A DNA stretch of 64,000 nucleotides from Schizochytrium sp. TIO01 (lineage: Eukaryota; Sar; Bigyra; Thraustochytrida; Thraustochytriidae). The stretch is taken from contig SMSO01000032.1 in NCBI GenBank assembly GCA_004764695.1, positions 1,324,501 to 1,388,500 of the forward strand, given 5' to 3'. Under the pieces are notes generated by a model. The model saw only the letters and a program-made list of their open reading frames with translations. It had not been told where the DNA came from and ran no database searches. This document shows, in pieces, positions 1 through 33,864 of the stretch (position 1 is its first letter; every line of letters begins with the position of its first letter). The translations under genes and the position numbers were made by a program.

Positions 1-1507
1 CAAAGCGACCAGCTGACTTTGAGCTGGGCTCGCCCTGAGGCTGGCTTTCAAGGTCATTCTTATAGTCAATGAAGCTGCTCATACCTTCAGCCTCGCCATC
101 CTGGATAGGGGCCATGTGGATTCCTTGCACGTGTTGGTGAAGCCTGCGTTCCATGTCTGCGGAGTCATCGATTCCGCGCCAATGGCTTGACGCCTCACGC
201 CAATGAGTTATTACATCATAAAGGTGACCTTCGTCGAGAATGTGGCGAATGAAACCATCCGAAAGATTGCGCTCAACTTCTTCACGCTCGACCAGAGGTC
301 CATAGCTCGTGTCATCGAAACAGTAGCCCAAGAGAGGAAGGTAGAAGGGTTTCCGGCGGAACTGCATACGGAATTTCTGAGTATCGACACGATTTTCAAA
401 CGCAATGGTGAGATTAAGAATGATTGCATCATAATGTGTAAGTGGGTCGCGACGTACAATCTTACTTGCGGTTTCGAGGTCAAAAGCAATCTCGCCCTCA
501 ATCCCAGCATCGCGGAGGATGAACATAAAGAGTCGTTGAATCTCGATGCGAGGCTCAACAATGAGTACGCGGGGAGCACGAGGGCCAGCTTTGGTACGCT
601 TGGAATTCGTTTTGCGGTTGAGGAAAGATACATTGCGCATTTTATGCGGGGCCATTGCATCAGAGCCGCGTTGGTATGGGGTAACCGCGCGAGCACTGCG
701 AATACGCTTCACAAAAGGCTCAAGAACAACAAACCTTACATACCAAGCGAAGAAACCGAACAAGTTCTTAGCGAACAAGTCACCAACTGAGTGTCCAATC
801 TTATCACCGTCCGGGCCCATCAAATTAAAGCACGGCGGTCCAAAGGCATAAAGAAAGATAAATAGACTCTGTGCAAAGAAAAAGTAGGTCATGACGGCAA
901 GAACCCACTCCCAGCAGCGTTCGTGAACGATGAAATGCTTCTTTTTTTCGCGAATCATTGCCAAAAGATCAACGACAAGCCAGAAGCACACGAAATAGGA
1001 TGCAAGGTTGAAGATCCATTTAAGTGTCACGTTCTTCTGCATGGCTGCCAACACACCAAAAGCAATCATCACGATATCTTTTACCATCATAAAGGTGACA
1101 TGACCAAGCTCTAGGTCGTCAGGGGTCATAAGATTCAGTAGAATGTTAACGTTCGAGATAATCACAGGACAGGTCATCATCCAGAACAAGTAACGGCCGA
1201 TAGCTAGATCAAAAACGTCACCAGCGTGGTTTTCAATGGGAATGTAAAGGAAATCAGTTGTTCCAAAGCAAGCGAGTGAGTAAACACAAAAGGTCACAAA
1301 TTGCACATAGATAGGATGCAAATTACAGCGTCCATTGCGATACTGGAAACCATAAAAACAAATCAGTGCAGTACTGCAGGAAAACACGCATAGACTTGCG
1401 CCTGCGACTCCTTGCGACACAGTTTCATCTGTTGTTGGCTGGGTTTGTAGTACACGAATAAACTCGCGACGCCAAAGCTCATGTTCACTCATAGCCATCG
1501 CCTCCAT
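1..1507 (-). CDS. Channelrhodopsin-like protein with C-terminal pseudo-receiver domain (partial, 3' end outside window)
   Basis: I translated the minus strand from an ATG at 1507 to the window edge: 502 codons without a stop, running off position 1. Residues about 34-262 form seven hydrophobic helices of the microbial-rhodopsin fold. Helix C reads GRYLFWMMTCP (Arg105, Trp109, Cys113, Pro114), helix D carries Asp144, and helix G reads GDLFAKNLFG, with Lys247 as the expected retinal Schiff-base lysine and Asp243 matching bacteriorhodopsin Asp212. Phe108 replaces the Asp85 counterion. Cys113 and Asp144 match the channelrhodopsin 'DC pair'. Helix F is unusual, with Gln213 where bacteriorhodopsin has Trp182. 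After a basic linker, residues 312-436 resemble a response-regulator receiver domain beginning VLIVEPR, but Asn365 sits at the phospho-acceptor position. The ATG at 1507 has A at -3 and G at +4; in-frame ATGs at 1498 and 1492 are alternatives. It is a paralogue of the gene at 4089-5996, colinear in all helices and the receiver. Light-gated anion conductance is inferred from similarity to labyrinthulean channelrhodopsins; a non-conducting sensor is possible. Confidence 0.9.
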   Translation of the reverse strand, partial: MEAMAMSEHELWRREFIRVLQTQPTTDETVSQGVAGASLCVFSCSTALICFYGFQYRNGRCNLHPIYVQFVTFCVYSLACFGTTDFLYIPIENHAGDVFDLAIGRYLFWMMTCPVIISNVNILLNLMTPDDLELGHVTFMMVKDIVMIAFGVLAAMQKNVTLKWIFNLASYFVCFWLVVDLLAMIREKKKHFIVHERCWEWVLAVMTYFFFAQSLFIFLYAFGPPCFNLMGPDGDKIGHSVGDLFAKNLFGFFAWYVRFVVLEPFVKRIRSARAVTPYQRGSDAMAPHKMRNVSFLNRKTNSKRTKAGPRAPRVLIVEPRIEIQRLFMFILRDAGIEGEIAFDLETASKIVRRDPLTHYDAIILNLTIAFENRVDTQKFRMQFRRKPFYLPLLGYCFDDTSYGPLVEREEVERNLSDGFIRHILDEGHLYDVITHWREASSHWRGIDDSADMERRLHQHVQGIHMAPIQDGEAEGMSSFIDYKNDLESQPQGEPSSKSAGRF

Positions 1508-1586
1508 CTTGGCAGAATGTGCTGGCTTTTGAAATTGTGAACTTGCCCAAGCGAAAGGCAAACTTATCAACTATACCTCAGGCCTC

Positions 1587-1602
1587 TCGAATTCGAATTC
1601 GA
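1587..1602. promoter_or_regulatory. 16-bp perfect palindrome upstream of left rhodopsin gene
   Basis: TCGAATTCGAATTCGA reads identically on both strands and lies 80-95 bases upstream of the start codon at 1507. Its position suggests a dimeric transcription-factor site, but no function is shown. The spacing does not fit a heat-shock element (GAAnnTTCnnGAA). Confidence 0.3.
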
Positions 1603-2380
1603 AGCAAGTATGCGTCTGTCCCAGCCCAGGCTCCAGCGTCAGCGTCAAGGTTGTTTGTTTGTGTGCGTATGCCTTACACAACCGGTACCTGACGTGCCTA
1701 AGCAACTCAAGCACCCAAGGTCTGGTGACCTGCTCGAAAGACGTAAAGGGTTTTGCCAGATTTTGCCAAACCCACTCGTCAGGAAAAAAAAAGTTTACGT
1801 TCTACAATTTCATAGATTTAGAACCAAAGAGAGCTCAGTGAGGTCAATGTGCAACACAAAAGCAAGAAAAACATTATTCTTATTTTAAATAAAATTTTAA
1901 TATTACAAAGAAAATGAAAGGGATAACAAGCAGATTTAGCAAGATTTAAAAACATGCCAAGTTTGTTTCCCGCAGAGCAATTCTCTTTATGCTACCCTTT
2001 TGCTACCAATATCATTTTTGTTAGAGCACCAAAATTCAACTCCGAAAGAGCCGTCAAATATTCTTACCAGTTAACTGTACAGTCAGGGCTTCCACCGGAT
2101 CGTTTAACGGACACTGGTGAGGGGCACTGTGTATTTTAATTAATCTCCTTGAGGCAGAAATGAAAATGAATAAATAAAACATGTCGTGATTAAAGAAGTA
2201 GAGTTCGTTACTTGAGCAGATTCGTAAGATCAGAGCGACTCAACTGACTGAGCCTCTTCTGGTATTAGTGCTGAGCCTGTGTGACGCATTAAATAATTAT
2301 AAATTCAAATTCCAAATACGATGGCTAAGTTGTTGTGTTACAAGAGTCTGAAACAATCATCTGACAGAAACTGGAAAAAT

Positions 2381-2381
2381 A

Positions 2382-2412
<31 letters not shown>

Positions 2413-2414
2413 AT
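2381..2414. repeat. (AAAT)n microsatellite
   Basis: About 8.5 uninterrupted copies of a four-base AAAT unit in the intergenic region between the rhodopsin genes. Confidence 0.95.
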
Positions 2415-4088
2415 TCAATGGCTCTTATTACTTCCTAGAAATTACTGAGAAACGCTGCTTCAAGTTGCGTTATCTCAGAAAATAAACAAAACAGAAAGTA
2501 AGAAATTGCAATGAAGTTGCGAGACAAGCTAGAACATGACCCAGGCGGGAGACATTTTGAGGAACTTGTTTACCCGGCTCAACAATAAGGGTGTTTATCT
2601 AATTTGAGACAGATTGTACCTGCTGCGTCATCTACACAAGCATGGATAATCTGGAAAATCAACGATAACATATTTCTGCCTGCGCGTCAGAGTTGCCAAA
2701 TCGTGTGCGTGCGTGCATGCATGCATGCCTGCAGAACGAGGCCCTTTGGTTTATATATGTAAAGGTGCAAAATGCTTGTTTTTGAAAATGTTAAAAAACA
2801 TAGAATGTGCCACTTCGACATAAAAGTTGTGGTCAGGCGATTCATAAATCTCCGCAGGAATCACAGTGAACATCAATCCGTTTGAAGAACTGCAGCTGAG
2901 GCGCAAACTCGAGAGGTGCTATATGCCAACCCTACTCAGTAGATGATGCAGCGTGGCCATGTTAGAATATTGCCTTGTTGTATATCCAGAATTTTAAACT
3001 TGCTAAATCAATTCGGAAGCTGCCTCTTCATTTATCAATTCCATTGATCATTAAAAAGTGATAAACTCTTTAAATCCGGCCAGGTGTACAAGGTTCTACC
3101 ATGTCCATTTTGGCTCCTTTCTTTGTTATAGTTGCTTTGTGCTTCATTTATAAAAGAATAAAAATAATTATAAAAACATAACCGTTTCCCTGGAATACTT
3201 TTTATTTTACAAGCCTGGACCGAAAGAAGCTCGTTTTGCTTGACTTGGTGTCATTGAGGGGGGAAATAATATTGATTCAGAGTAGGAACAGGTTCAAAGT
3301 TTTACTGGTGCGGTGACTGTAACGCAGATACTGCGACACAGTTGTGTCATTTTGAGTATCAAAAATCCCAACGGACATGTCTGTTCATCGAATGCGTAGT
3401 ACGCAACCTGAAGGCACTTCCACAGAGGAGGTAAGAAATGTCTCACTTAACTCATGCAGGCTACTCAAGGTCATAACAACCCCACTTGGTTTGTGAAGAG
3501 GCTGGCTGGAATATGCACTACGCTGTGTAGAAAAACATGAACGGATATGATCCGTTCCAGATTCTCTGTTACCAACAATTGCATCGAATGCATGTATCCG
3601 CTTACGCGCTGTGAAAAACCATAAGGCTTTGTTAATATTCAAAGAGGGAAAATGTATTGAGTGATCAGATGGTTAGATAAGATGAACGTTTCATAAGTTG
3701 GAGGAAACTAACAACTTGGCGAGAAGGGTACATTTCCAATTTGCGAATTTAAACTTAAACGAACATCATTTAATCAAGGAAGCAACTCTTGAAAGGGATC
3801 GGCGGCAAATCTGTTTTTGGCAGTCAGCCTTTGCTTGCTTTGGCTATCAGTCTTGGGCCTTGGTAAGGCAATTGCAGAAGTCTTGGCCTCGAGCATCAAG
3901 CAATAGCTCAGCCCGGCAGTCCACCCGCACTCTTGCAACGTGGACAGACCTCTGTCTTACACAACCTTTTACAGATTGGTAGACGTGTATAGCAAGACCT
4001 TTTCGTTGTTATCAAATTAATAGATAATCGAAGGCGATTCTGATTGCTGTTGAGGAAGGAAAAGAGAATCGTTGAAGCATACTTTAAA

Positions 4089-5996
4089 ATGTCTTCTCTC
4101 GTACTTGGGGCAGGCCAGTGGTTTTCAGAAAGCCTCTCAACACTTAAGCCACGCTTGCTTTCTGTAGATGACGAACTTCCTTCTGGCGTCTTTGGCGCCC
4201 GTTTATGCGTCTTTGTTTGTTCAGCTTTTTTAATTCTCTTTTACTCATTTCAGTTCCAGGCGAAGCGTTGCAACCTCTCTCCAATTTTTGTGCAGCTCGT
4301 CACCGTGACCTACTACTGCATTAGTACATTTGGATCTACTAGTTACCTGGTTCTAAATGTAGAAGACCCGGACAACTCTACCCATTTTCAATTCATGCTG
4401 GGAAGGTACATTTTCTGGATGTTAACTTGTCCTATGATCATCTCCAACCTTTGTGTGCTTTTGAATATCCTGACTCCAGACATGCTTGATTTGGGTCATA
4501 TAACTTTGCTCATGGTCAAGGATATTTTTCTCATGTGCTTTGGAATTCTTGGTGCTGCACAGAGTACGATGGGTATCAAGGCTGCTTTTGTTAGTGCTTC
4601 ATTCCTGTTTGCGGCGTGGCTTGCATACGATATTATCAATCTTGCTATTGCTCGCCGTAAGTACTTTATGGCTCATCAGTACTGCTGGAATTGGATGATC
4701 GTTGTGATCGTTCTATTTATGGTATCATGGACAGTCTTTCCTGTTCTTTTTGTCGTCGGTCCTCCGCTGCTGGACATTTCGAGCTCGGGAGCTGACCAGA
4801 TCGGACATGCTGTAGGAGATTTATTTGCCAAGAACTGCTTCGGCTTTGTAGTTTGGTACGTACGTTTTGTCGTTCTTGAGCCATACACCACACGCAATGC
4901 GATGCATCGTTCCGTTTCTCCCTATGCCTCGAACCTTTCCTCCAAGCAAATCAAACTTGGAGAAATTTCCGACGAGGCCCTGCGAACAAAACGTATCCGT
5001 CGCCACATTGGTCGTCGTAGCCCAGCAGTGCTTATTGTGGAGCCTCGTATCGAGATGCAGCGCCTTTTCAGCCTTATGCTTAACCAGGCAGGAATCATTA
5101 CTGAATTTGCGTTTGACATCAACATGGCTGTTCATATGCTCAAGCGTGATCACCTTGGTACTTATCATGTTGTATTTGTGAACCTTTCAGTGCCTACTGA
5201 AAAGCGCGTTGAAATTCAGCGATTCCGTTCTCACTACCACCGCAAGCCATACTACCTACCAGTACTCGGTTTCACCTTTGAGGAGGATCACATGGTTGAA
5301 GTTCTTGAACGCGAAGAACGTCAGCGCACGATCTGCGACGGTGTAATCCGCCACATTCTTGATGAGAACCACATTTATGAACTTGTAGTTCATTGGAAGG
5401 AGGCTGCAGCTCATTGGCGCGATATTGACATGTCTGCTGACATTGAGCGTAAGCTTTATGAAAACGTACAAGGCATTCATCGTTCGCCAACTGTCCACTC
5501 TGACGATCACAGTGAAGGGTCTTTCCAGGTTGATGACAATCATGACGAAAGTCCGCGGTATCAACAGTCTGGTGTAATGCCCTACGGTGGCTTCGGTCCA
5601 GAAGATGAGTTTGCCTACGGCAATGGGAGCCCCTCCATGACAATGCAGCAACAACCTGGAGCTTTGCCGGGCCAGATATCTGATTTCCCTTCCACGCCTC
5701 GTTCACGAGGACCTGGGTTTCCTGATGATTCGTCAGCTAGGCCCTCGGGTTATCAGCGCTCCCAAAGTTTTACAAGCGGAGATTTTGGTGCTGAGTATGA
5801 CATGTATCCCCGTCAAGACCGCGCTCACATGATGCGTAGGTCCGACTCAGCTCAATCTGGACAGTACAGTCCCCAACAGCAGTTGCAACGCTCCAACTCA
5901 ATGAACAGCTACTCTGCACAGTCTTATAATGATAATGCAGGTATGGGTGCTGGCCCTATGCAAAATGGTGCAATGTTCCGTAACAAATTCTTGTAA
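4089..5996 (+). CDS. Channelrhodopsin-like protein with C-terminal pseudo-receiver domain (complete)
   Basis: 635 residues from the ATG at 4089 (A at -3) to TAA at 5994. The frame is open upstream to 4044 without another ATG. Seven helices lie at about residues 34-57, 65-89, 103-127, 134-157, 163-187, 202-225 and 237-262. Helix C is GRYIFWMLTCP (Arg106, Phe109 in place of bacteriorhodopsin Asp85, Trp110, Cys114), with Asn120 at the Asp96 position. Asp145 in helix D pairs with Cys114 as in channelrhodopsins. Helix G is VGDLFAKNCFG with Asp244 and retinal-binding Lys248. Helix B has no glutamate, unlike chlorophyte cation channelrhodopsins. Residues 312-436 are receiver-like (VLIVEPR; VVFVNLSVP) but with Glu318-Pro319 for the acidic pair and Asn365 for the phospho-acceptor. 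Residues 465-635 are disordered and rich in Ser, Gln, Gly and Pro, with three RSxS motifs. It is probably a retinal photoreceptor in the plasma or eyespot-type membrane. The family is known to include red- to blue-absorbing anion channels in labyrinthulids; conductance and colour cannot be read here. Confidence 0.93.
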   Translation: MSSLVLGAGQWFSESLSTLKPRLLSVDDELPSGVFGARLCVFVCSAFLILFYSFQFQAKRCNLSPIFVQLVTVTYYCISTFGSTSYLVLNVEDPDNSTHFQFMLGRYIFWMLTCPMIISNLCVLLNILTPDMLDLGHITLLMVKDIFLMCFGILGAAQSTMGIKAAFVSASFLFAAWLAYDIINLAIARRKYFMAHQYCWNWMIVVIVLFMVSWTVFPVLFVVGPPLLDISSSGADQIGHAVGDLFAKNCFGFVVWYVRFVVLEPYTTRNAMHRSVSPYASNLSSKQIKLGEISDEALRTKRIRRHIGRRSPAVLIVEPRIEMQRLFSLMLNQAGIITEFAFDINMAVHMLKRDHLGTYHVVFVNLSVPTEKRVEIQRFRSHYHRKPYYLPVLGFTFEEDHMVEVLEREERQRTICDGVIRHILDENHIYELVVHWKEAAAHWRDIDMSADIERKLYENVQGIHRSPTVHSDDHSEGSFQVDDNHDESPRYQQSGVMPYGGFGPEDEFAYGNGSPSMTMQQQPGALPGQISDFPSTPRSRGPGFPDDSSARPSGYQRSQSFTSGDFGAEYDMYPRQDRAHMMRRSDSAQSGQYSPQQQLQRSNSMNSYSAQSYNDNAGMGAGPMQNGAMFRNKFL

Positions 5997-7124: not shown

Positions 7125-8036
7125 ATGTCGGTCAGCACTGGCCGCGACTCTGGCGTAGGCCTTCCGCGCTCCGCCGTTGCCACTCTTGCAGGTGGCTACA
7201 TCTTCGTCTTAGGTGTAGCTGCTGGCCAACTGGCTGGATTCGCAGCAGGATTGAGCTGCGCCGTGCCGCTGGCTAGCTCTGTCGCAGGCGCCACCGTGGT
7301 GTCTTGTGCCGCTGTAGCATCATGTTCAGTAGCTCTCAATATCTCCGGATCGTCCTCGTCTTCCTCGCAGGCTGTCTCCTCGGCGAGCCCTGCCGCTGAT
7401 TCTTTTGTTTGTGACGGTAGTTCTGGTTTCCACGAACGTCGCATTTCGGCGCTCTTGAGTTTAGAAGATGTCGCTTCGGCGGTATCTTGCACGGCCGGCA
7501 AGTACTTTGACGCCTCTGGTCCATCCGTTGAGCAGCTATGGTGGGCTTCGGCAGCGCTGGCAGTCTACCGTTTACTCGGGGGGCGATTTGCGGCGGTCAT
7601 GCCAAGCGACCTCCTCAAGCCCGGCGCCTTTGCTCGTGAGAGCCTTCCTGCAGGTCGCCGTTACGCAAACACTGCACAGCGACAAGAAGTCGTTCGCATC
7701 GGTCGCTCCCGAGGTTGCCATTCTTGCGGCAGTCGCCGCCCAGGTGCGAGCGGATTCCATGCGGATCACATGCCACCTTCTAAGCTACGAGCTGTTCGCG
7801 AGGCAAAGCTGCCACTGCGTATCTTCAACATGCAGGTGCCACAGGTTTTCCTGCCGCAGTGTGCACAGTGCTCTGCCCTCCAGGCCTTTGCGGCAAGACA
7901 ATGGAACTCGATGTCACTGCGTAGACATGCTGCACTGCGACTTCACATCGCTGCGCTACGCCCGTATCACCTCACTGGAATTGTGGTTTGTGCAGGGGTC
8001 CTTGCAGGAGTCCCCACGAATGCACGCACACACTGA
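7125..8036 (+). CDS. Small membrane protein with CxxC / HADHMPP / CxxC motif
   Basis: 303 codons, clearly richer in GC than the flanks and with consistent codon use, so I take it as a real gene. Residues 15-70 are hydrophobic and Ala/Gly/Val-rich, probably one or two membrane helices. A Ser-rich stretch follows at 72-95. The C-terminal half has an ordered set of potential metal ligands: CHSC at 198-201, HADHMPP at 212-218 and CAQC at 246-249, preceded by a conserved-looking LKPGAFARESLPAGRRYA segment at 164-180. Two Cys pairs flanking a His/Asp/His cluster suggest a zinc-binding or HNH-like fold. I recall this general arrangement from uncharacterised eukaryotic proteins but cannot name a family. 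The ATG at 7125 has T at -3, so a different start or a 5' intron is possible. No operon-like partner. The function is unknown. Confidence 0.72.
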   Translation: MSVSTGRDSGVGLPRSAVATLAGGYIFVLGVAAGQLAGFAAGLSCAVPLASSVAGATVVSCAAVASCSVALNISGSSSSSSQAVSSASPAADSFVCDGSSGFHERRISALLSLEDVASAVSCTAGKYFDASGPSVEQLWWASAALAVYRLLGGRFAAVMPSDLLKPGAFARESLPAGRRYANTAQRQEVVRIGRSRGCHSCGSRRPGASGFHADHMPPSKLRAVREAKLPLRIFNMQVPQVFLPQCAQCSALQAFAARQWNSMSLRRHAALRLHIAALRPYHLTGIVVCAGVLAGVPTNARTH

Positions 8037-10020: not shown

Positions 10021-11148
10021 ATGGCCTCTATGAACGAGAACTCAGTCAGAGAAAGCAAGCTCGCCAACGAATATGAGGAAACTCATAGTGATGATGGCAA
10101 CAGCACGATCACCGGCGAAGATGCCACACACTATGGTGACTCACAAGCGCAGGATGATGTCCCTTCGCTGCATGATGATGCCACCAACGAGAATAACGGG
10201 GACGATATAAAGGTCGACATGAAAACCTACAGAAGTCATAATGAGCAACCGAGCTCAGCAGATAGCCATTATGAAAATGCTCCTCAATCACGAAAGAACA
10301 AAAGCTGGGATCACTCAAATAGTCATCGCCCTGAGTCGGTAGAGTCTCACAACCATGACCATCACAAAAACTCCACTTTCAACTACCGTGAAGGCCTTGA
10401 GGAGCTGAAACCTGACTTTAACAAGGTAAGGGAGGCAGCACCTGGAGTTGCTGAAGCACTTGGTGTCAACTTCCGTGCTAACTCGGTGGGAGCCGTGAAG
10501 AAGGCGCTCAACTTCTTGATCTATACACGTGTTCTCCAGTTCATCTTTTCTATTTTAGCTTGGGCAACTCTGGCAGCTGCCATTCAAGACTTCAAGACAA
10601 CTCTCGACGATATCGGCCAGGGAAGTATTGATTCAACACCATTTCTATCTGGTGTTATCTACGCGCTCGTGCTTATGGCTTTACTCACTGTCTTTTCAAT
10701 TCTCACGGGCCTCGCTGGGTTTCTCCTTCTCGGAGGCAACTACAACACAGAGACCCATGTGAAAGTCTTTGCTCGCTTCATGGCAGCAATGGACCTGATG
10801 TTTGTGTTTCTGACCTTTTCTGCCTTTTCATCTTGTGCAACCTCTACCATGGTCATTTCTGGTTTTGCTGATATGAACGGGGTGGAATTTGGCTCCGGCA
10901 AAGCAGCAGCGGGGGCTTCTTTTACTATTATCTCCTGGCTTACGTTGTGCTACTCCGCTGCTTTGGCGACGACAGTAAACTTGGGTCGTAACTATCTTTT
11001 GCGACCTACAGACTTTGAGCGCCCCAATGCCCGGACTATGAGCAGCTCTCAATCAAGCGATGCAAACCGCAGTAGCCATAACTTTCACGAAACCCAGAAA
11101 TACGCCCGCAATGACTTGAATGATAACACTACTGTAGCTGAGGTTTAA
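10021..11148 (+). CDS. Tetraspanning MARVEL/CASP-like membrane protein
   Basis: 375 residues, with the start ATG in good context (A at -3, G at +4). Residues 1-125 are hydrophilic, acidic and rich in Asp, Asn, Ser and His (a HNHDHH cluster near 110-115), probably a disordered cytoplasmic tail. Four membrane helices follow at about 163-187, 207-236, 249-279 and 297-319, then a 55-residue hydrophilic Ser/Asn-rich tail. An Arg precedes the second half of helix 1 (YTRVLQF), and a charged residue is buried in helix 3 (AAMDLMF). The topology (both ends inside, short loops, Arg in helix 1, Asp in helix 3) fits the MARVEL/CASP-like superfamily of membrane-organising proteins. I infer this from topology rather than a diagnostic motif, so another four-helix family is possible. 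It stands alone, with no functional link to its neighbours visible. Confidence 0.85.
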   Translation: MASMNENSVRESKLANEYEETHSDDGNSTITGEDATHYGDSQAQDDVPSLHDDATNENNGDDIKVDMKTYRSHNEQPSSADSHYENAPQSRKNKSWDHSNSHRPESVESHNHDHHKNSTFNYREGLEELKPDFNKVREAAPGVAEALGVNFRANSVGAVKKALNFLIYTRVLQFIFSILAWATLAAAIQDFKTTLDDIGQGSIDSTPFLSGVIYALVLMALLTVFSILTGLAGFLLLGGNYNTETHVKVFARFMAAMDLMFVFLTFSAFSSCATSTMVISGFADMNGVEFGSGKAAAGASFTIISWLTLCYSAALATTVNLGRNYLLRPTDFERPNARTMSSSQSSDANRSSHNFHETQKYARNDLNDNTTVAEV

Positions 11149-12087: not shown

Positions 12088-14691
12088 TCAGAAGTAAGCT
12101 ACGTAGCACTGCTTACTGGATGAAGATGGGGCAGGGTCGACGTCATTGAATTCCGCAGCCTCGCATTTAATGGAGGTCGATCCGTCATACGTCTTGAAAA
12201 CATAGTCGCCGTCAGCACCGAAGCGAACCATGCCAGCCTTCTTAACAGTTCTAGTAGCACCCTCGTTACCAAGCTTGGAGAAGTCAAGTGCAGTAGGATA
12301 GAACCAGCAGAACTTCTTCTTGTTCGGCAGAGGATCGAAGCCAAAGACATCCGTTGAGCAGTCAAAGTCCGCAGCATCATCAAAGTAGTAAAACGCGTAG
12401 GCATTCTTGTTACCGAAGCGAACTACACCAGGTTCAGAAGTAGAGCAGGACTTGTTGAGTTTGCAAAGCTTGCTACTAAAGCTCAGAGCCTTCACCTTGG
12501 TTGGTGCAGGAGTAGGGGCTTTGGTGGGCTTGGCAGTCGGTTCCGGCGTGGGAGCCTTGGTTGGTCTTGCTGTAGGAAAATCTGTCGGAGCCTTTGTCGG
12601 CTTCGTGGTGGGTTGGTTGGTGGGCTTCTTCGTAGGCTGAGCTGTGGGCGTCTTTGTAGGTTGCGGCGTAGGCTCCCTGGTAGGTCTAGCAGTTGGCTGG
12701 GGAGTGGGAGGAGTCGGGGAAGGAGTAGGGCGGTCTGTCGGCGGGCCAGTGTAGACGCAAGTTCCACTTGAGCAAACACCCTCACCACCGGCGCTGGTAG
12801 TGCAGATAGATCCATCTACAACGTTGCCAATGTAAGCTCCACTCATCTTCCAGTTTGCAGAGCAAGTGCTGCCATCCGTGCACTTGATGCGGCATCCTTG
12901 GTTAGATACTCCACAACTCTCAAGCGAGGAGGAGGCACTGCACGGATCTAGACATTGGCCGCCAGCGCTGCAGTATCCACCATCACATTCGGTATCCGCA
13001 TCCATAAGCACACCGTCGACACAGCATGAAGAATCGGAAAGGGTACCATAAGTAGTTGCACTTCCTTGTGCCACCATGTAAAATGTTGAAGTACTGCATT
13101 CCACATCTTTAGTGAGCGCGCAGTTCTTGCAGCCAGTGCAAGAGGTTCCGCCACCTACACATTCACATTCTTCATCACCACTAATGATCTCATTGCCACA
13201 AGTGGTTTCTTCCTCATAAATAGTGATGTACTCACAAGAAGCAGTAATAGCAGATTGCAGCTCTCCGCACATTTCATCGCGACGAGCGAGACGGAAGCGG
13301 TAAAGGTTAGTGCCAAGAATTTTGCCGTTGCCATAGTCCATAATACCACCTGTAGTTCCAACACCATTTTCAAAGGAATGCACAGCGGCAAAGTTATGAC
13401 CAAGTTCGTGCGCAAATGTACGCCAGAGGGAGGAAGTGTAACGAGAGATACCAGCGTTGTAATTGTTGTTGCAGAGAGTGCCAATCCAAGCAACACCAGT
13501 GGTGCTGGATCCAGAAGGGCATCCAGTAAAGTAGTGCAGAGTAGCAGCTTGCTTGGAGCTTGCAAGAGAACGGGTGAATGACGTAGCACTGTTGAGCTGG
13601 CCGCTGATGTCAAGAGGGCAAGTACTGTCGTCCGTCGAGTAGCTAAAGAACGTAGGCCATGAGCTAGGTACAGCTGAGTCAGTGGCCATCCACATGTTGC
13701 TGATCGAGAGCTGCATGTTCATCTGAATCTCATAGATAGCGCTTGATTGAGTAAAAACCTTCTCGTACTGAGCCAAGACACTTGCATTAGTACCTCCGAC
13801 GGAAGTATAGAATGCCACATCGGAGACAATGTTGATAGCAATCTGGTGAGCGCGATCGTCATCCGTGTAGCAGTCCGGAGTGAATGCATAGTCATCTGTA
13901 AGCTGGCGGCGCATAGAGTGGTCCTCAACAGATGATGTCGTGGCGTTGGTACTCTTCTTTGGCAGCTTGACCTTCTTGGCCAATGTGCTGATGGTGTATC
14001 CACTGACACCCATTGCAGAAGCAGTCTCGGAATCATCACCCAAAAGAATTTCAAGGTCATTGAGATCACTACTCTTGGCAACGATACTTTCAGGTACCTC
14101 CCAGGCTAAGCAGTCCGGGTCTTCATCATCACTGTCATCGCTAGAAAGGTGACGCTCGCTGTCGTACTTCTTGAAAATGTTATCGTGGGCCTCATCTACC
14201 TCATACCAGAACTCAGAGTCAGGGACTTCAGCAAGGATACGAGCGCCTTCGTCCTTAAGAAACATGTTGCGATGGCCGACTTGCACGGTCTTAGTGCCGT
14301 TGCGGACAATGAGTTCGATGATGTCCTCATCCGGGTGGTATGAACAAGTGAACCAGCCATACTCATGTTTGGCATGGTAGGTATATTTTGCATGTCGGTT
14401 CTCCATTGGCATGACAACCTCGCCTTCTGGTTGAGCAATGTGAATCGTACTGCCAACGGCGTACAAATTGCGCACGCGAGAAAGTTCATGTGATACATGG
14501 ATATCATCGCTGGCGCGAACGTCAACGTGGACTCTGTCCTCATCAAGACGACGTACATGGAACTGGTCAACTGGGTGAAAGGTACGGTCATTCTTTTCTT
14601 TAAGCTCTCGTGAGCGAATGTGACGAGCTTCGCTTGTACATGCAGTGCTGGCAAGCACAGCCACTGCAATGAGTAAGAGATTTGGCCTCAT
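12088..14691 (-). CDS. Secreted adamalysin-like zinc metalloprotease with disintegrin-like region, PT-rich linker and duplicated C-terminal module
   Basis: 867 residues. Residues 1-22 form a signal peptide (MRPNLLLIAVAVLASTA). The prodomain spans about 23-260 and contains a lone Cys116 in GWFTCSY that could serve as a cysteine switch. A basic site near RRQL (261-264) may be the processing point. The catalytic domain (267-490) has HELGHNFAAVH at 428-438 (three zinc-binding His and catalytic Glu429) and the Met-turn GGIMDYG at 448-454, the signature of metzincins of the M12B/ADAM type. Residues 498-565 resemble a disintegrin domain (CGNEIISGDEECEC) without RGD. A Cys-rich part extends to 645. 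A Pro-Thr linker with Lys/Arg-PT repeats fills 650-732 and is a likely O-glycosylation region. The last 135 residues hold two related modules, each with VRFG, a Tyr/Phe-rich strand and a Cys pair. It is probably secreted or wall-associated. Its close paralogue lies at 31300-33864. No transmembrane segment is seen apart from the signal. Confidence 0.95.
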   Translation of the reverse strand: MRPNLLLIAVAVLASTACTSEARHIRSRELKEKNDRTFHPVDQFHVRRLDEDRVHVDVRASDDIHVSHELSRVRNLYAVGSTIHIAQPEGEVVMPMENRHAKYTYHAKHEYGWFTCSYHPDEDIIELIVRNGTKTVQVGHRNMFLKDEGARILAEVPDSEFWYEVDEAHDNIFKKYDSERHLSSDDSDDEDPDCLAWEVPESIVAKSSDLNDLEILLGDDSETASAMGVSGYTISTLAKKVKLPKKSTNATTSSVEDHSMRRQLTDDYAFTPDCYTDDDRAHQIAINIVSDVAFYTSVGGTNASVLAQYEKVFTQSSAIYEIQMNMQLSISNMWMATDSAVPSSWPTFFSYSTDDSTCPLDISGQLNSATSFTRSLASSKQAATLHYFTGCPSGSSTTGVAWIGTLCNNNYNAGISRYTSSLWRTFAHELGHNFAAVHSFENGVGTTGGIMDYGNGKILGTNLYRFRLARRDEMCGELQSAITASCEYITIYEEETTCGNEIISGDEECECVGGGTSCTGCKNCALTKDVECSTSTFYMVAQGSATTYGTLSDSSCCVDGVLMDADTECDGGYCSAGGQCLDPCSASSSLESCGVSNQGCRIKCTDGSTCSANWKMSGAYIGNVVDGSICTTSAGGEGVCSSGTCVYTGPPTDRPTPSPTPPTPQPTARPTREPTPQPTKTPTAQPTKKPTNQPTTKPTKAPTDFPTARPTKAPTPEPTAKPTKAPTPAPTKVKALSFSSKLCKLNKSCSTSEPGVVRFGNKNAYAFYYFDDAADFDCSTDVFGFDPLPNKKKFCWFYPTALDFSKLGNEGATRTVKKAGMVRFGADGDYVFKTYDGSTSIKCEAAEFNDVDPAPSSSSKQCYVAYF

Positions 14692-31299: not shown

Positions 31300-33864
31300 T
31301 TAAAAGTAAGCGACGTAGCAGTATTTGGTCGCGTCTGTATCCGGCTCCACATCGTTGAATTCCGAAGAGTCGCAAGTAATTGTTGTTTTGGAGTCATACG
31401 TCTTAAAAACGTATTCGTCATCAGCGCCATAGCGCACAATACCAGCTGCCTTCACAGTCCCCGACCCACCATCACTAGTAAGCTTAGAGAAGGACAAAGT
31501 AGTCTCAGCAAACCAGCAGAACTTCTTCTTGTTGGGGCGCGGGTCAAATCCAAATGTACCAGAGTTACACTTGAAGGTCGTGGCATCATCAAAATAATAA
31601 AATGCGTATGCATCATCGTAACCATAGCGTGCTACACCAGCCGTGGTGATCTTGCATTTCTTGTTGTTCTTGCACAGCTTCTTTGAAGGAAAAGTTAATG
31701 ACTTTGTTGAAGTGGGGTTGGGGGTCGGCGATGCAGTTGGGAAAGAAGTGGGGTATGCAGTAGGCGAAGCGGTTGGGTATGGAGTTGGGAATGCGGTGGG
31801 AAAGCCTGAAGGCTTGTTCGTAGGGCTGGGCGTAGTTGGGAATGGAGTCGGAAAACCCGTGGGACTGGGTGTAGATGCAGTGGGTGAGCTAGTAGGCTTG
31901 ACCGTAGGGTCACCGGAGTAAACGCACGAACCAGAACTGCATTCACCATGAGTACCCGAGGATGTCAAACAGTAAGTGCCATCAGCTTGGTTGCCAATGT
32001 AAGTGCTGCCTGATCGCCAGTAAGCACTGCAAGTATCTCCATCAGTACACTTGAGTCTGCAACCTTGGTTTGAATAACCGCAGGTGTCCAGTCCAGATGA
32101 GTTGCAAGGGTTGACACAAAGACCGCCAGAACCACAGTATCCTCCAGTGCAGGTTGTAGTAGCATCAAGAAGTTCACCATCAACGCAGCATTCCTCGTCA
32201 GAGAGAATACCGTATGAAGCTGTCGCACCTTCTGGAACCATGTAGTAAGTGCTAGTGCTGCACGAAACGTCCTTTGTGAGAACACAAGCTTTGCATCCTG
32301 AACAAGATTTGGAGCCATCAACACATTCGCATTCTTCGTCGTCATCGATCACCAAGTTACCACAGCCCGTACCGTCATCATAAATGGAAATGTACTCACA
32401 CGAATCATCGACAGCATCCTGGATTTCTGCACACATTTCATCACGGCGAGCAAGGCGGAAGCGGTACAGACTAGTGCCAAGAATCTTGCCGTTGCCGTAG
32501 TCCATGATACCTCCAGTCGTGCCAACGCCGTTCTCAAAAGAATGTTGAGCACCAAAGTTGTGACCAAGCTCATGAGCAAAAACACGAAAAAGGTTCGAGG
32601 TGTACAGAGAAAGGCCCGTGTTGTAGTTGTTGTTACATAGGACACCAACCCATGCAACGCCGATAGTACTGTCAGAAGAAGAGCATCCTGAAAAGTAGTG
32701 TGTGGAGGCAGCTTGATCATCATCATCAAGGTCCTGGACCCAAGAAGTGACAGTGTTGAGCTGGGTGTCCACATCACCAGGGCAGCCATCATCGTCAGTA
32801 TAGGAGATGAAGGCCGGCCAAGAGCTGGGAATGGTGCCATCTGTACCCATCCAGACATTGCTAATCACCAGCATCATGTTCATTTGAATCTCGTAGATTG
32901 ATGAAGACTCGGAGAAGGCTTCCTCAAACGCAGCGAGTGCGCTAGCATTTGTTCCGCCGACAGTATCGTAAAAGGCAACATCAGAAACAATGTTTACCAG
33001 CATTTCGTGAACGCGATCATCATCGTCGTAACAATCAGGGGTGAATGCATAAGCATCAGTAAGGCGGCGTCCCGAGGTGGGAATTTCATCCAAGTCAGCA
33101 GAGGCAACCTTCGGGTACTTGGGAGCGCGGGCAAGATTACGAAGAGTGTACCCAGAAGTACCCATGTCGGATAAAGTTCTGTTGTTGATACCAGGCACAA
33201 TGGCAAGATCAACAAGGTCGGCACTTTTAGCAATCACATCATCAGGCACTGACATGGCAGTGCAACCAGTGATATCCTCATTATCACTGCTGAGGTGACG
33301 GGCTTCAGTCTCCTCAGAAGCATATTTGTTCAGGTCACCGTGAAGGGCAGTGTCATGTACGCTGAGAATTTCGATCCAGTACTCGGAGTCCGGGACCACA
33401 GATAGTTGGCGGACATCATGATCTTTGAGGAAGCGGCTGCGGTGGCCAACGTGAACTGACCGTGTGCCGTTGCGAACAATAATGCTTTGAATGTTCTCTT
33501 CAGGGACATAAGAGCAAGTAAACCAGCCAAACTCGTGCGTGGCCTTGAAGGTGTACTTGGCGTGGCGGTTTTCTAGAGGGATGTCAACTTCTCCGTTGCC
33601 CACAGCCATGCGAATCTTACTGTTCTTGCCATAAAGATTTCTGGCGCGGGTGAGGTCGTGGGAAACAAACACATGTTCTCCCGCGCGAACATCAACATGC
33701 ACGGCGTTCTTGGTGAGCTGGCGCACGGTGAAATGTTCTACCGGGTGGAAGACGCGGTTAACCTGGCGCTGTGTGGTTTGGAATCCCCCAGAGTGGGCCT
33801 GCGCCCCCTCAAGCGTCACAAGGAGGGTCGCTAATGCCAGAACAACTGCTTTAATCATGCTCAT
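31300..33864 (-). CDS. Secreted adamalysin-like zinc metalloprotease, paralogue of 12088-14691
   Basis: 854 residues, colinear with the first protease throughout. Signal peptide 1-23 (MSMIKAVVLALATLLVTLEG); a second in-frame ATG two codons later is an equally good start. The prodomain carries Cys117 in GWFTCSY. A possible processing site is GRRL near 265-268. The catalytic domain has HELGHNFGAQH at 431-441 with catalytic Glu432, and the Met-turn GGIMDYG at 451-457. The disintegrin-like region begins CGNLVIDDDEECEC near 501, and the Cys-rich part runs to about 648. The Pro-Thr linker (653-719) is uncharged, using FPT, YPT and SPT in place of the Lys/Arg-PT repeats of the paralogue. The C-terminal pair of modules is conserved (VARYG/IVRYG, KKKFCWF, CYVAYF ending). 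It is likely an extracellular protease from the same duplication. Both genes are on the minus strand 16.6 kb apart, so this is not a tight tandem array. Confidence 0.95.
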   Translation of the reverse strand: MSMIKAVVLALATLLVTLEGAQAHSGGFQTTQRQVNRVFHPVEHFTVRQLTKNAVHVDVRAGEHVFVSHDLTRARNLYGKNSKIRMAVGNGEVDIPLENRHAKYTFKATHEFGWFTCSYVPEENIQSIIVRNGTRSVHVGHRSRFLKDHDVRQLSVVPDSEYWIEILSVHDTALHGDLNKYASEETEARHLSSDNEDITGCTAMSVPDDVIAKSADLVDLAIVPGINNRTLSDMGTSGYTLRNLARAPKYPKVASADLDEIPTSGRRLTDAYAFTPDCYDDDDRVHEMLVNIVSDVAFYDTVGGTNASALAAFEEAFSESSSIYEIQMNMMLVISNVWMGTDGTIPSSWPAFISYTDDDGCPGDVDTQLNTVTSWVQDLDDDDQAASTHYFSGCSSSDSTIGVAWVGVLCNNNYNTGLSLYTSNLFRVFAHELGHNFGAQHSFENGVGTTGGIMDYGNGKILGTSLYRFRLARRDEMCAEIQDAVDDSCEYISIYDDGTGCGNLVIDDDEECECVDGSKSCSGCKACVLTKDVSCSTSTYYMVPEGATASYGILSDEECCVDGELLDATTTCTGGYCGSGGLCVNPCNSSGLDTCGYSNQGCRLKCTDGDTCSAYWRSGSTYIGNQADGTYCLTSSGTHGECSSGSCVYSGDPTVKPTSSPTASTPSPTGFPTPFPTTPSPTNKPSGFPTAFPTPYPTASPTAYPTSFPTASPTPNPTSTKSLTFPSKKLCKNNKKCKITTAGVARYGYDDAYAFYYFDDATTFKCNSGTFGFDPRPNKKKFCWFAETTLSFSKLTSDGGSGTVKAAGIVRYGADDEYVFKTYDSKTTITCDSSEFNDVEPDTDATKYCYVAYF

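Follow-up and report, generated by a model that had tools for sequence, protein, structure and literature searches.

A head-to-head pair of probable anion channelrhodopsin genes carrying pseudo-receiver domains in Schizochytrium sp. TIO01

Introduction

Do two neighboring rhodopsin genes of a thraustochytrid, a fungus-like protist of the sea, encode light-gated channels tuned to different colors, and what is the receiver-like domain that follows each of them? The question is raised by a 64,000-nucleotide stretch of the Schizochytrium sp. TIO01 genome (GenBank assembly GCA_004764695.1, contig SMSO01000032.1, positions 1,324,501 to 1,388,500 of the forward strand; hereafter the window). A preliminary description of its first 5,996 positions, made from the letters alone, had reported a divergent pair of labyrinthulean channelrhodopsin-like genes fused to receiver-like domains. 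We consider it highly probable that the two, here gene 1 and gene 2, are paralogous labyrinthulean anion channelrhodopsins (ACRs) arranged head to head, gene 1 with the retinal pocket of a RubyACR and gene 2 with another pocket, each joined to a pseudo-receiver.

Labyrinthulean ACRs, including the gene 1 ortholog, and RubyACRs have already been characterized by others, and the protein collection already contains close copies of both genes (P0005 for gene 1, P0001 for gene 2), so the locus is less novel than the preliminary description suggested. New elements are a linkage that is probably conserved, the recognition of the pseudo-receiver and the uneven divergence of gene 2. No description of the head-to-head locus or of a pseudo-receiver in these channels was found in the literature passages searched, which did not extend to the 2020 and 2023 RubyACR papers.

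Structure of the locus

Both genes are uninterrupted open reading frames (ORFs) and lie head to head. In each, a microbial-rhodopsin domain is followed by the receiver-like domain and then by a low-complexity tail:

1 to 1507, minus strand: gene 1, very likely a RubyACR-type channelrhodopsin, with pseudo-receiver (ORF, Pfam PF01036, Hondaea ortholog FCC1311_007872)
704 to 1411 (approximate), minus strand: gene 1 seven-helix rhodopsin domain (Pfam, alignment)
110 to 568 (approximate), minus strand: gene 1 pseudo-receiver domain (profile comparison, active-site columns)
1508 to 4088, no strand: spacer of 2,581 bp between the start codons, with no ORF of at least 100 aa wholly within it
4089 to 5996, plus strand: gene 2, channelrhodopsin with pseudo-receiver and low-complexity tail, 635 aa (ORF, Pfam, Hondaea ortholog FCC1311_007882)
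4176 to 4904 (approximate), plus strand: gene 2 seven-helix rhodopsin domain (Pfam, alignment)
5025 to 5486 (approximate), plus strand: gene 2 pseudo-receiver with long last helix (AlphaFold2, 5001 to 5498; profile comparison)
5487 to 5993, plus strand: gene 2 Q/S/P-rich tail (alignment to Hondaea P0002)

The ATG of gene 1 is at 1505–1507 and its reading frame stays open through the window start. Another 583 bases of flanking DNA carry the frame to its stop, which ends at C31:1323917; the full ORF has 696 aa, or 691 aa with a later ATG. Gene 2 runs from the ATG at 4089 to the stop codon at 5994–5996. The two proteins are paralogs, and their alignment has 44% identity (213 of 479 positions, E 7e-156); the adjacent, oppositely oriented paralogs of the preliminary description are borne out. 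Its two complete sets of rhodopsin hallmarks also stand as far as the hallmarks go; gene 1 itself is incomplete within the window.

The rhodopsin domains

Pfam Bac_rhodopsin (PF01036) matches both genes (E 2.8e-22 for gene 1 and 1.3e-21 for gene 2). The residues R82, T89-C90-P91, D115, D212 and K216 (bacteriorhodopsin, BR, numbering) are present in both, with the Schiff-base lysines coded at 767–769 (Lys247, gene 1) and 4830–4832 (Lys248, gene 2), and every hallmark named in the preliminary description is thereby confirmed. In a similarity search channelrhodopsins come first for both translations. Among solved structures they fill the top nine rows for each gene, at E 1.2e-17 to 1.9e-8 for gene 1 and 3e-18 to 1.4e-12 for gene 2, with 3ug9 as the best match of both (E 1.2e-17 and 3e-18); the best match outside the channelrhodopsins has an E of 5.1e-5 for gene 1 and 2.1e-8 for gene 2. 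Together with Pfam, the trees and the Hondaea orthologs described below, these matches uphold membership in the labyrinthulean channelrhodopsin family. Resemblance on this scale is well outside what chance would produce.

None of the five glutamate sites in the second transmembrane helix (TM2) of CrChR2 is occupied by a carboxylate in gene 1, nor is any in gene 2; at BR85 the two genes have Phe. Non-carboxylates at the TM2 glutamate sites and at BR85 form the pattern of ACRs (PMC8406140; PMC8818676), and both genes therefore have residues of the anion type. From these residues, genes 1 and 2 are predicted to be light-gated anion channels.

Orthologs and probable conserved pairing

The genome (64.06 Mb in 37 contigs) was searched for further members. 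The protein search and the family search agree on at least three rhodopsin loci, namely genes 1 and 2 and gene 3 on another contig; these counts are lower bounds, since introns were ignored and further split opsins may exist. Three protein searches, the third of which scored the 8000 candidates sharing most words, gave 6, 5 and 3 matches. A transcriptome protein, MMETSP0958 'Auranti...', matches gene 3 with 98% identity over 59% of the gene 3 length, which places the source organism within or very near Aurantiochytrium. Three ACRs are named in Aurantiochytrium limacinum (AlACR1, AlACR2 and AlACR3) and there are three rhodopsin loci here; the genes described here are probably strain copies of the known Aurantiochytrium ACRs. 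GenBank accessions MT002467 to MT002469 are given in PMC10147648 for AlACR1, an entry spelled A1ACR1a and HfACR1.

Orthologs were identified in Hondaea fermentalgiana for gene 1 (P0007), gene 2 (P0002) and gene 3 (P0008). The orthology rests on two trees, one of the seven-helix domain (10 rows) and a combined one covering the two domains (9 rows); in each of them gene 1 pairs with P0007 and gene 2 with P0002, both pairings having starred support. The truncated P0006 was omitted from the receiver and the combined trees, and P0005, P0001 and P0009 from all trees as near-copies of genes 1, 2 and 3, P0009 being also partial. P0007 and P0002 have consecutive-looking locus tags (FCC1311_007872 and FCC1311_007882) and come from contigs of equal size (535,287). 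Because of these tags and sizes the linkage of gene 1 with gene 2 is probably conserved in Hondaea.

The receiver-like domain

By Pfam the receiver-like domain is barely visible. Response_reg has a sub-threshold score of 12 bits in gene 2 (E 0.24; cut-off 30.2) and does not match gene 1 at any E up to 1. The annotation software seems to have picked up the resemblance in a relative, P0004, which is automatically named 'Response regulatory dom...'. Modeling of the gene 2 domain with AlphaFold2 (166 residues, 9 sequences) gave a predicted local distance difference test score (pLDDT) of 87.3 and a predicted template modeling score (pTM) of 0.80. The model shows strands and helices in the alternating order of a receiver, and its last helix has 37 residues. 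A profile of 9 family domains was then compared by hhalign with the 18 true receivers of the same genome. The full family aligned with a probability of 96.2 (E 2.7e-9, 81 columns), and without the gene 3 group the probability was 96.9 over 107 columns, almost the whole receiver. No control, whether one of the 10 column-shuffled profiles or the one reversed profile, exceeded 1.0, and the seven-helix profile scored 0.4.

The active site is another matter. It was read in the alignment columns of 11 family rows, P0005 included. Genes 1 and 2 both have Glu-Pro in the acidic pocket, Asn at the Asp57 equivalent and Leu-Asp-Glu in the Lys109 region. Throughout the family the acidic pair is Glu-Pro in 9 of 11 rows, the phospho-acceptor site is Asn in nine, Ser in one and Asp in one (P0003), and Leu-Asp-Glu stands at the Lys site in all 10 rows that cover the region. 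The true receivers of the genome, 18 above the Pfam cut-off, keep the Asp in 17 cases and the Lys in 18. The family domain thus shares fold order and profile similarity with the receiver domain PF00072, from which it differs by falling below the Pfam cut-off and by the loss of the phospho-acceptor, of one acidic residue and of the catalytic lysine. It is a pseudo-receiver, a receiver in fold with a degenerate active site. Of the receiver-like domain that the preliminary description placed on each gene, the fold therefore holds (hhalign, AlphaFold2) and the phosphorylation site does not, and an ordinary phosphorelay through this domain appears unlikely.

Retinal pockets and predicted color

In gene 1 the pocket has Phe108 at BR85, Met147 at BR118 and Ala246 at BR215, and also N138, Y142, Q182 and I186 (BR numbering, with 138 and 142 placed in helix 5 by alignment). 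These residues and the grouping of gene 1 are those of RubyACRs. The published residues F104, M143 and A242 of HfACR1 (PMC12448745) are carried exactly by Hondaea P0007 (FCC1311_007872), and because of this match we equate P0007 with HfACR1. Gene 1 shares its domain order with this protein and is identical to it at all 22 pocket sites, at 204 of 242 positions of the seven-helix domain and at 129 of 156 of the receiver; it belongs to another genus, and its tail is only 45% identical over 179 aligned positions.

Y142, Q182 and I186 have been termed unique to RubyACRs, with position 186 fixed to BR Pro186, and a substitution at N138 was tested alongside them (PMC11473104). In that work the MsACR1 changes W142Y, W182Q and G186I left the color unchanged or blue-shifted it, which counts against reading a red color from these three residues; only F138N gave a red shift, and a small one (PMC11473104). 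Since the three gave no red shift in MsACR1, they are markers of the RubyACR family and no proof of color, and the red color of gene 1 therefore rests on the identity of the whole pocket with that of HfACR1. HfACR1 is a characterized RubyACR with a maximum at 610 nm (PMC8818676). Because all 22 pocket sites match, gene 1 is very likely a red-light anion channel of the RubyACR type, with a predicted orange-red maximum of about 590–610 nm. It most likely corresponds to AlACR1 of A. limacinum.

The pocket of gene 2 is not that of a RubyACR. It keeps Phe109 at BR85 and Ala247 at BR215, but has Leu148 at BR118 and V138, F142, W182 and P186 at the remaining sites. Since changes of the Met118 site of HfACR1 to Cys or Val blue-shift its absorption (PMC12448745), gene 2 probably absorbs at a shorter wavelength than gene 1. 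Two photoreceptors with different color pockets as genomic neighbors, as the preliminary description had it, are thus found here at the level of pocket residues.

ACRs absorbing at 485, 545 and 590 nm have been reported from A. limacinum.

Unequal evolution of gene 2

The two domains of gene 2 have not diverged equally from the Hondaea ortholog P0002. The receiver is identical at 139 of 157 positions (89%) and the seven-helix domain at only 154 of 243 (63%; Fisher p 1.0e-8), and the Q/S/P-rich tail is poorly conserved (39% over 167 aligned positions). No such contrast is seen for gene 1, with the counts given above (p 0.68), or for gene 3 (206 of 240 in the seven-helix domain and 124 of 156 in the receiver, p 0.10). 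The seven-helix domain of gene 2 differs in conservation from that of gene 1 (p 1.8e-7), and its receiver does not differ significantly (p 0.15), so these comparisons point to the channel as the fast part of gene 2. The pocket follows the same pattern, with differences from the Hondaea ortholog at 7 of 22 sites in gene 2 and at none of 22 in gene 1 or gene 3.

Decay of the Hondaea gene 2 ortholog alone was considered as an explanation and rejected, since relative rates with three outgroups are not significantly unequal (19 v 28, 19 v 27 and 20 v 21); both lineages have accordingly changed. The asymmetry of gene 2, a fast opsin with a strictly kept receiver, seems to be new. That selection of sites in this gene seems to tolerate far less change in the pseudo-receiver than in the channel suggests a concrete, testable answer for the family, and the probable linkage of a red channel with a partner whose pocket evolves fast would offer a natural series for work on color tuning.

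Alternative explanations and proposed function

Could the rhodopsins be sensory rhodopsins or pumps, with no channel at all? A signaling-type cytoplasmic domain is attached to them and PF01036 spans microbial rhodopsins generally, but it is channelrhodopsins that lead the solved matches of each gene ahead of other rhodopsins, the DC pair (C90/D115) is present, BR85 lacks a carboxylate and gene 1 is orthologous to HfACR1, whose photocurrents (a light-gated passive anion current) have been reported by others. We hold this to be very improbable. Next to no credit can be given to working phosphorelay receivers by which light would signal through a two-component pathway. The homology to true receivers found by hhalign, the 18 receivers of the genome and the Asp retained by P0003 would fit them; against this, 10 of 11 rows have Asn or Ser for the Asp57 equivalent, Pro replaces the second acidic residue in 9 of 11 and the Lys is replaced in every row covering it; the receivers of the same genome retain the Asp and the Lys almost without exception. 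With its active-site residues lost, the working receiver was rejected. That a shared bidirectional promoter or other common regulation holds the pair together strikes us as doubtful. The divergent orientation would suit it, and the adjacent-looking Hondaea tags suggest an old linkage, but the start codons are 2,581 bp apart and tandem origin alone can yield conserved linkage. The sole repeat near both starts is 14 nt long, with a 93% match on one strand, and 36 of 100 shufflings of the spacer yield pairs as good, so a shared promoter based on it was set aside as chance-level. The shared regulation proposed in the preliminary description thus found no support, and common regulation of the pair is possible but unsupported.

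Paralogous ACRs with pseudo-receivers remain the reading that we prefer, and several results pull against parts of it. Non-carboxylates at the sites named above are insufficient to prove anion selectivity (PMC8406140). In the AlphaFold2 model only four strands have three or more residues, the fifth having two; the full-family hhalign alignment is limited to its 81 columns, and a profile of only the gene 3 group fell to a probability of 89.9 (84 columns). In the receiver-only tree (9 rows), where long branches were flagged, gene 2 joins P0002 at 91/89, but no node unites gene 1 with P0007. Finally, no confident prediction can be made for the color of gene 2.

If genes 1 and 2 are anion channels as predicted, light would isomerize the retinal bound to the helix-7 lysine, and isomerization would open an anion path inside the seven-helix domain. 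The resulting anion flow may steer the flagellated zoospore by shifting its membrane potential, and the pseudo-receiver would most likely serve as a docking, dimerization or targeting module at the membrane. A bolder and rather improbable extension is a conserved two-color module, in which the red pocket is frozen between genera and the partner pocket is free to retune. The long helices of the pseudo-receivers would then assemble mixed oligomers, and a non-photosynthetic swimmer would compare two wavelengths through two anion currents from one linked locus.

Expression, further relatives and neighboring genes

According to the A. limacinum proteome, vegetative cells contain significantly less AlACR1 than zoospores do; AlACR2 and AlACR3 follow the same trend without reaching significance (PMC12221091). 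Two RPE65-family loci were found in the TIO01 genome as a possible retinal supply; the family has been discussed as a retinal-forming oxygenase (PMC10016063). The 9-base core of the 14-nt repeat was not found in the gene 3 region (L006), and the spacer contains a short AAAT tandem run at window positions 2383–2413.

Gene 3 (L006:4111-6142 of C13, minus strand) belongs with P0008, P0009 and P0010 to a group whose members have a C-terminal MYND zinc finger. In the present assembly the sequence that codes for the finger comes after the ORF stop, in another frame than in the transcriptome protein P0009; an assembly error, a splice or a real change are candidates for the frame shift. The public name of P0008 is 'Programmed cell death protein 2', yet it has a rhodopsin, a receiver-like region and a MYND finger. 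P0003 and P0006, both ACR-like and from a JGI source, have an equal contig size (136,917) and may be a further linked pair. P0004, filed under the dinoflagellate Durusdinium trenchii (12.4-kb contig), clusters with the labyrinthulean ACRs and may be a contaminant of the dinoflagellate assembly. A single scan of viral contigs gave 28 pattern matches, none of which was confirmed as a relative.

On the gene 1 side some 5.1 kb separate the gene from the next ORF of at least 120 aa. The gene 2 flank has a 303-aa ORF without Pfam match, starting at 7125, and then a MARVEL-like ORF at 10021. No light-related neighbor was seen by eye among the larger ORFs or by Pfam among the six ORFs tested. Sub-threshold MARVEL matches were obtained for the flanking ORFs at window 10021–11148 (plus strand, E 2.1e-4) and L004:3158-3799 (minus strand, E 1e-6), and the rhodopsin pair may thus sit between two related membrane-protein genes. 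Farther along the window, similar large ORFs at 12088–14691 and 31300–33864 (minus strand) match M12B reprolysin-type metalloproteases (PF13688, E 3.9e-18 and 2.2e-17), and both carry an HELGHNF motif and proline/threonine-rich repeats.

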